From NCBI GenBank assembly GCA_016124955.1, contig WGMR01000003.1, positions 1-64,000 of the forward strand: DNA of 64,000 nt, given 5' to 3'. Under the pieces are notes generated by a model. That model was not told the DNA's origin. It did no database searches and saw only the letters and a program-made list of their open reading frames with translations. The position numbers and the translations under genes were made by a program. Positions 24,777 to 26,057 of the stretch are shown piece by piece. How positions within the stretch are numbered: the stretch's first letter is position 1; every line of letters starts with the position of its first letter. The DNA comes from Alphaproteobacteria bacterium. GTDB taxonomy: Bacteria > Pseudomonadota > Alphaproteobacteria > UBA9219 > RFNS01.

Positions 24777-24788
24777 AAAATAAAAAAA

Positions 24789-24812
24789 GGGGGCGGTGTT
24801 TCCACCGCCCCC
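24789..24812 (-). terminator. Rho-independent terminator, bidirectional
   Basis: A ten-base GC stem (GGGGGCGGTG with CACCGCCCCC) closes a TTTC loop. On the minus strand the stem is followed directly by a long T-run (bases 24776-24788), making it an excellent terminator for the EF-hand gene. On the plus strand a T-run follows about 20 bases later, so it may also end the anmK transcript. Confidence 0.85.
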
Positions 24813-24849
24813 GAGGCTAAAGTATCTTTTTTTATTATCTGCGTCTTAT

Positions 24850-25470
24850 TTAGTGCATAGCGAGCACGCGTCCTCTGCGTTGTACCCCGCCAATATGGGC
24901 AAACCTGGTTTGCGTACGGACCGGCTTATCAGCCGCCAGCGTAATGCCGCCGGTAACCCCACTGTTGCCCACCGATAACCAACTGCCTCTCTTCGATCCG
25001 GCGCTGGCTGTTGCGCCTGTGGCCTTGCCAAGAAGGTCACGTATTTTGCTGACCTGGTCCTTTTGCTTCTTGGTTGCCTTGCCGCTTTGCACGGTTGCTG
25101 TGAAAGCCGTGTTAAGCGCCTGGGCCAAATCCTTGAAGCTGGTCTGGAACGCCTGGTAGTGCGCGTCAGACTGGCTTGCAAGGGCATTAATCTGGGCCTG
25201 CAGATTAAGAACCTTGACCAGAACTTCCGGGTTGTTCTGGAGGGCCTTCTGCATTTCTTCGACCGAGATCTCCCCATCCCCATCAATATCGATGAGCTTC
25301 TTTGCGGCAGCCAGTTCCTGTTCCAGCTTTTGCTGAGCATCACTCTTGTTCTCCAAGTGTGACAGGTATGTATCTGTCGCTGCCAGGGCAACGTTCATCT
25401 TTACTTTTAAATTTTCCACCGCGGCTTGCTGTGCCCGATCGGTAGCAACATCATCATCATGCGTAGCCAT
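24850..25470 (-). CDS. EF-hand protein of unknown function with disrupted start region
   Basis: A 206-residue soluble protein. The N-terminal half is helical and probably coiled coil, with one canonical calcium-binding loop, DIDGDGEISVEE (about residues 61-72, acidic at positions 1, 3, 5, 7 and 12). A second helical half and a Gly/Arg-rich basic tail follow. Single EF-hands are uncommon in bacterial cytoplasmic proteins; calcium binding is likely but the role is unknown. The natural start is probably ATG 25470 (MATHDDD). A 19-base tandem duplication has separated it from the AGGAGG site; an in-frame ATG at 25479 is an alternative. Confidence 0.7.
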   Translation of the reverse strand: MATHDDDVATDRAQQAAVENLKVKMNVALAATDTYLSHLENKSDAQQKLEQELAAAKKLIDIDGDGEISVEEMQKALQNNPEVLVKVLNLQAQINALASQSDAHYQAFQTSFKDLAQALNTAFTATVQSGKATKKQKDQVSKIRDLLGKATGATASAGSKRGSWLSVGNSGVTGGITLAADKPVRTQTRFAHIGGVQRRGRVLAMH

Positions 25471-25493
25471 CTTAATCATGCGTAGCCATCTTA
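25456..25493. repeat. Exact 19-bp tandem duplication over a translation start
   Basis: Bases 25456-25474 and 25475-25493 are identical (ATCATGCGTAGCCATCTTA on the plus strand). The unit includes the start codon and first codons of the EF-hand gene. Because 19 is not a multiple of three, the two copies are out of frame with each other. The duplication places the ribosome binding site next to the first copy only. Confidence 0.95.
25472..25489 (-). CDS. Five-codon leader ORF (MATHD) created by duplication
   Basis: AGGAGG at 25495-25500 lies 5 bases before ATG 25489, which reads Met-Ala-Thr-His-Asp then TAA at 25472-25474. The main gene's ATG at 25470 follows the stop codon after a single base. 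The arrangement would allow terminating ribosomes to restart on the EF-hand gene. It may lower or regulate expression, or be neutral. Directly visible in the sequence; function is inference. Confidence 0.5.
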   Translation of the reverse strand: MATHD

Positions 25494-25500
25494 GCCTCCT

Positions 25501-26057
25501 TTGTTGGAGTTTCTTTTTTTTATTTTGAGTTCGTTACCGCTGTTGGCCGTTTGCCCCCCTGATTCCTGTGGCCGCCCTCGATAACGCTCGGGCCAATTCT
25601 TATGCTCATTGCGAAAACGGTCAACATAACAAATGTTTTTTGAGCTACCGCTTTTTTGCATAGCGGCCAGATATGGGGACGTTTGTGCTGCGGAATCTCG
25701 TTCCATGCAATAAAAATGCAGGTTTACAGCGCTTTATTCCCGAATGTATCATCGTGATAACGCAATGCCCCGTGCGGAAAGCCTAAAGCGGCAAAATACC
25801 GGGTTGACAGGATTGTTTTCGCGCAAAAAATAACGCGAATTTCCGTCAAGTGTTTTTTTGGGCTTTGATTTTCTCCAGCCCAAGGGCTACTCATGAAAGG
25901 CAGCAAATAACGATAATATTCTTGCGTATTTTGGTAATGAGTTTTGTAAATCTTCAAACGGCGGAATTTGGCGTGTGCGTAATGGCAAAAGAACGACGGA
26001 AGAAATAATCCTGCCGTTACCAATTTTGGTTATTTATAATTGTCTGAGGTTTACGAC
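25501..26057. other. Long intergenic region, no supported gene
   Basis: About 557 bases, AT-rich, between the EF-hand gene and the alpha/beta hydrolase (both minus strand). Open frames on the minus strand at 25491-25706 and 25724-26023 have no recognised domain, poor codon bias and no convincing ribosome binding sites. A TTGACA at 25804-25809 has no good partner. The promoter of the EF-hand gene should lie here. Confidence 0.5.

Follow-up and report, generated by a model that had tools for sequence, protein, structure and literature searches.

The minus strand of the 64,000-nt stretch of alphaproteobacterial DNA analysed here (hereafter the window) carries an orphan EF-hand gene with an exact 19-bp tandem duplication across its translation start, and this duplication sets a five-codon leader ORF between the Shine-Dalgarno sequence and the presumed original start codon. 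In kind, the duplication appears to be a small, ordinary mutation of a single genome. We consider it probable that this one event is neutral or attenuates the gene mildly, and that translation of the main ORF is rescued by termination–reinitiation.

Properties of the tandem duplication

Both read directly and recomputed, the minus strand has the order AAAGGAGGC-TAAGATGGCTACGCATGAT-TAAGATGGCTACGCATGAT-GATGATGTTGCT or, in a longer reading past both copies, AAAGGAGGC TAAGATGGCTACGCATGAT TAAGATGGCTACGCATGAT GATGATGTTGCTACC. The two 19-bp copies of TAAGATGGCTACGCATGAT lie head to tail without a mismatch from 25493 to 25456 (copy 1 at 25475 to 25493 and copy 2, identical to it, at 25456 to 25474; minus strand, as are all features of the gene described below). 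They begin 1 nt past the AGGAGG Shine-Dalgarno sequence (25495 to 25500), and TAAGATGGCTACGCATGAT spans from just behind this site to codon 5 of the EF-hand gene. Besides direct reading, both copies were assessed by a tandem-repeat scan, by shuffles and against a sample of the genome. Among tandem repeats in the window, the 19-bp repeat scores highest (76, with the next at 53; copy number 2.0). When the window was dinucleotide-shuffled 100 times, TAAGATGGCTACGCATGAT found no match even with 3 mismatches allowed, and a search of the 1.93-Mb genome that tolerated 2 mismatches returned the two tandem copies only. As a repeat background, we used 245 kb of stretches sampled from this genome, in which the exact tandem repeats with two copies and a period of at least 9 are those of period 9, 11, 12, 19, and 87 only, leaving the 19-bp repeat as the sole exact tandem repeat of period 13 to 80; 2.0 Mb of order-1 random sequence contained periods 9 and 10 only and none above 10. 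The 19-bp repeat is a genuine duplication event and lies beyond chance similarity. The first-pass annotation had described an exact 19-base duplication that leaves AGGAGG driving MATHD-stop, with the true ATG one base past the stop, and this description is correct to the base. Its view that the event is recent because the copies are identical goes too far: 0 differences in 19 bases only bound divergence below about 15% (95% bound), and the age of the duplication is not readable from 19 identical bases.

Elsewhere in the genome, an 87-bp exact tandem repeat of 2.25 copies (L125:1173-1368) runs into a tRNA-Met gene (1350-1426) and resembles a duplicated tRNA 5′ end with its upstream DNA.

Start codons and reading frames

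The Shine-Dalgarno sequence, with an anti-SD duplex down to −11.6 kcal/mol, precedes three ATG codons at spacings of 5, 15, and 24 nt. The first of them (ATG1 at 25489) opens the leader ORF ATG GCT ACG CAT GAT TAA (MATHD-stop; 25472 to 25489), and its spacing of 5 nt is among the common ones in the genes of this genome according to a rough survey that scored 2 to 12 nt only. The third (ATG2, 25468 to 25470) follows the leader TAA at a distance of 1 nt and opens a 206-aa frame. Between the two lies an in-frame ATG that was made by the duplication (25477 to 25479), where the mechanical ORF list starts the main ORF; absent from the first-pass annotation, this start overlaps the end of the leader ORF, bypasses it and would give an N-extended product of 209 aa (MIKMATHDDD...). 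An anti-SD duplex scan detected no second strong site near the start, leader ORF included. Further 5′, an A-rich tract (25505 to 25527) is a putative translation enhancer judging from its composition. The stop codon of a 71-aa ORF (25491 to 25706) is the TAA inside repeat copy 1; this ORF was rejected as a coupled upstream gene, with a coding score of −3 versus +66 for the main ORF and no Pfam match.

With one unit in silico, the locus reads AGGAGG-N5-ATG and encodes the same 206-aa protein, so that a single copy appears to be the natural, even obvious, ancestor. Codon bias, scored by codon usage trained on genes of the same window, is strong from 25470 to about 24991 (approximately 155 codons), and there is none upstream of 25470, which makes 25470 the likely original start. 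Each 19-bp unit holds TAA-G-ATG in register, and any copy number from one up therefore keeps the full-length frame: with 1 to 5 copies in silico this frame was always kept, and only mini-ORFs were added.

Proposed effect on translation

These features suggest the following course of events. One small tandem duplication would have copied 19 bp over the start of the orphan EF-hand gene, and ribosomes recruited by AGGAGG would now mostly start at ATG1, make MATHD, and stop. A fraction of them would restart, either 1 nt further on at 25470 or at 25479, where the in-frame ATG overlaps the leader, while a few might start directly at 25479 despite the long 15-nt spacing; both routes to 25479, the direct one being weak, would supply an N-extended form in addition. 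Since every repeat unit brings stop-N-start in register, the full-length protein should still be made, at a yield that is probably reduced or modestly retuned, not abolished. The stop–start spacing of +1 nt at 25470 lies within the range of about −8 to +10 nt that we took to allow coupling. Published work places the most efficient termination–reinitiation coupling between −4 and +3 nt (PMC12548453), a range that includes +1 nt; in six gene pairs that were tested, hardly any coupling was left at about 20 nt, and a Haloferax pair tested for termination–reinitiation has a native spacing of +1 nt (PMC10666635). The predicted energies for opening the region from the Shine-Dalgarno sequence to ATG1 are equal with one and two copies (8.5 versus 8.4 kcal/mol), and RNA structure thus predicts no direction of effect. 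Counting against a reduced yield, coupling in engineered bicistronic leaders can maintain or raise expression.

The duplication is most likely tolerated, in an accessory gene that the cell can probably do without, and no regulatory role is needed to explain it. If it is tolerated thanks to the in-register TAA-N-ATG, it would be a natural one-step conversion of a gene into a leader plus gene, showing how minigene leaders can arise simply by duplication of a start codon; being one case, unreplicated and found in an orphan, it is of limited consequence.

Properties of the EF-hand gene and its genomic slot

From the ORF list, Pfam searches and codon bias, the main ORF (24850 to 25479; 209 or 206 aa) is an orphan with one EF-hand loop, DIDGDGEISVEE, that has the form of a canonical 12-residue Ca-binding loop. 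Pfam EF-hand models match it with E-values of 8e-5 to 1e-3, below their gathering cut-offs, and calmodulin matches cover the loop. Paired EF hands were not found, as every Pfam EF-hand match falls on one stretch. A terminator search placed an intrinsic terminator (GGGGGCGGTGGAAACACCGCCCCC followed by a T run; 24789 to 24812) after the ORF, and this terminator together with the coding signal from 25470 makes the main ORF very likely a real gene. Its last 45 or so codons (24990 to 24853) carry no coding signal, and GC at second codon positions is 0.63 there versus 0.33 in the body; this end may be a low-complexity tail or the result of a lost stop, a frameshift, or decay. A gene that is decaying altogether, with its start impaired by the duplication and its 3′ end having lost coding character, would account for the vanished codon bias and the shift in second-position GC. 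We nevertheless regard this reading as unlikely given the open frame, the strong codon bias over most of its length, the canonical EF-hand loop and the intact terminator, and a low-complexity C-terminal tail would look alike.

Full-length relatives of the main ORF were found neither in 33 genomes of the order and 385 sampled genomes of the class nor in 85,000 species genomes (pattern-based scan), plasmids, phages, and viral contigs. In this Micavibrio-like alphaproteobacterium, the gene lies between a hydrolase gene and anmK, in a slot (24777 to 26057 of the window) whose contents vary. The order hydrolase, anmK, tyrS is common to many alphaproteobacteria, with the slot empty or filled by other genes, and Micavibrio-like alphaproteobacteria are among the nearest relatives of the adjoining hydrolase gene. 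In one relative (G001), the slot holds BrnT/BrnA toxin–antitoxin genes (L118:2134-2533) plus an unknown gene, and in another (G002; L117), small genes and a DUF2147 gene adjoin the hydrolase gene. Because the EF-hand gene lacks relatives and the contents of the slot vary between genomes, it appears to be a lineage-specific accessory gene, and its absence from relatives and the variable slot are as expected of a dispensable gene. The hydrolase gene of G002 (L113; L117:3605-4146) is itself broken over several frames, possibly reflecting long-read indel errors or a pseudogene.

Comparison to known leader ORFs

Similar to cases of termination–reinitiation coupling like trpE-trpD and galT-galK (PMC12548453, PMC10666635), the stop and start are 1 nt apart here and a strong Shine-Dalgarno sequence precedes the first ORF only. 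Unlike in those pairs, the upstream ORF has merely five codons and is a copy of the downstream start, not a separate gene. The minigenes in the leaders of axe-txe (mg2), B. subtilis ycbK (mini-ORFs), and EHEC LEE4 (a six-codon ORF) also are very short ORFs with their own Shine-Dalgarno sequence just 5′ of the main ORF; of these, mg2 sits 15 nt from txe and raises its yield, whereas the ycbK mini-ORFs lower yield (PMC8708949). These minigenes were tested experimentally, in contrast to the EF-hand leader, which is known from sequence, and in that work we saw no description of any of them as the main start copied in tandem. MIRU (mycobacterial interspersed repetitive units), a dispersed and apparently mobile repeat family, places a coupled ORF at start codons with a spacing of −4 nt (PMC12548453); it resembles our case as a start-codon repeat with an ORF coupled to the gene whose presence is thus tolerated, but differs in having multiple genomic copies, whereas the EF-hand locus is one local duplication without further copies at up to 2 mismatches.

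The bicistronic design (BCD) leaders of synthetic biology share the architecture of a Shine-Dalgarno sequence, a short leader ORF, and a stop beside the target start. Engineered BCD leaders usually hold a second Shine-Dalgarno sequence inside the leader, unlike the EF-hand leader, where the anti-SD scan returned AGGAGG only. If translated, the EF-hand leader would work like minigenes, MIRU, and biotechnological leader ORFs. A search of open-licence papers for tandem duplications creating leader ORFs at start codons returned nothing specific.

Such parallels could suggest that the mini-ORF has been selected as a device for translational control, one that delivers or meters ribosomes and perhaps responds to the release-factor or recycling state. 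The favorable stop-N-start spacing would fit this idea, as would the reported effects of preceding minigenes on txe, ycbK, and LEE genes (PMC8708949) and the use of short leader ORFs in biotechnology (PMC12548453), but we think that it is improbable. With no homolog in any genome set searched, no conservation is demonstrable. The layout of a strong Shine-Dalgarno sequence, mini-ORF, and TAA-N-ATG has 1 match genome-wide, the same number as a reversed-pattern control, so that selection for it cannot be claimed; chance can account for the layout by itself, though not for the exact duplication. RNA folds are not clearly better than those of shuffled sequences (z −0.2 to −1.7) and no Rfam family matches, and we rejected an RNA switch or attenuator on these grounds.

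Possible copy-number variation at the repeat

The first-pass annotation had further proposed a phase-variation-like slippage site. The locus does resemble simple-sequence-repeat phase variation in having a direct repeat at a translation start, but with 2.0 copies it is no multi-copy array, and the proposal is doubtful. Different from phase-variable contingency loci, gain or loss of units switches no frame over the 1 to 5 copies modeled above; with the same frame at every copy number, it would change dose instead, making copy change at most a dose tuner and not an on/off switch. As an alternative to a tolerated single mutation, the repeat might be a slippage-prone copy-number tuner whose units are gained or lost within the population, each adding a MATHD mini-ORF and stepping yield down with the protein unchanged. 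Perfect 19-bp direct repeats can contract, so the two copies could now do so, and the protein is kept at each modeled copy number. Against this, the repeat stops at two copies with no longer array, and a unit of this kind does not recur in the genome; the duplication junction has 0 nt of perfect microhomology on either side and therefore was not a pre-made slippage site. We consider such a tuner quite unlikely, and still less do we expect the 19-bp unit to be a frame-neutral translational rheostat whose 0, 1, 2, or more mini-ORFs step the dose down while leaving the protein unaltered.

The consensus of a draft genome could hide a mixture of copy numbers. An assembly or sequencing artefact in an organism with one copy is very improbable even for a draft of 11 contigs, since the 38-bp repeat is far below ordinary read length and is resolved by assemblers, the 19-mer has no other occurrence in the genome, and the genome has a completeness of 99% and a contamination of 0.05%.
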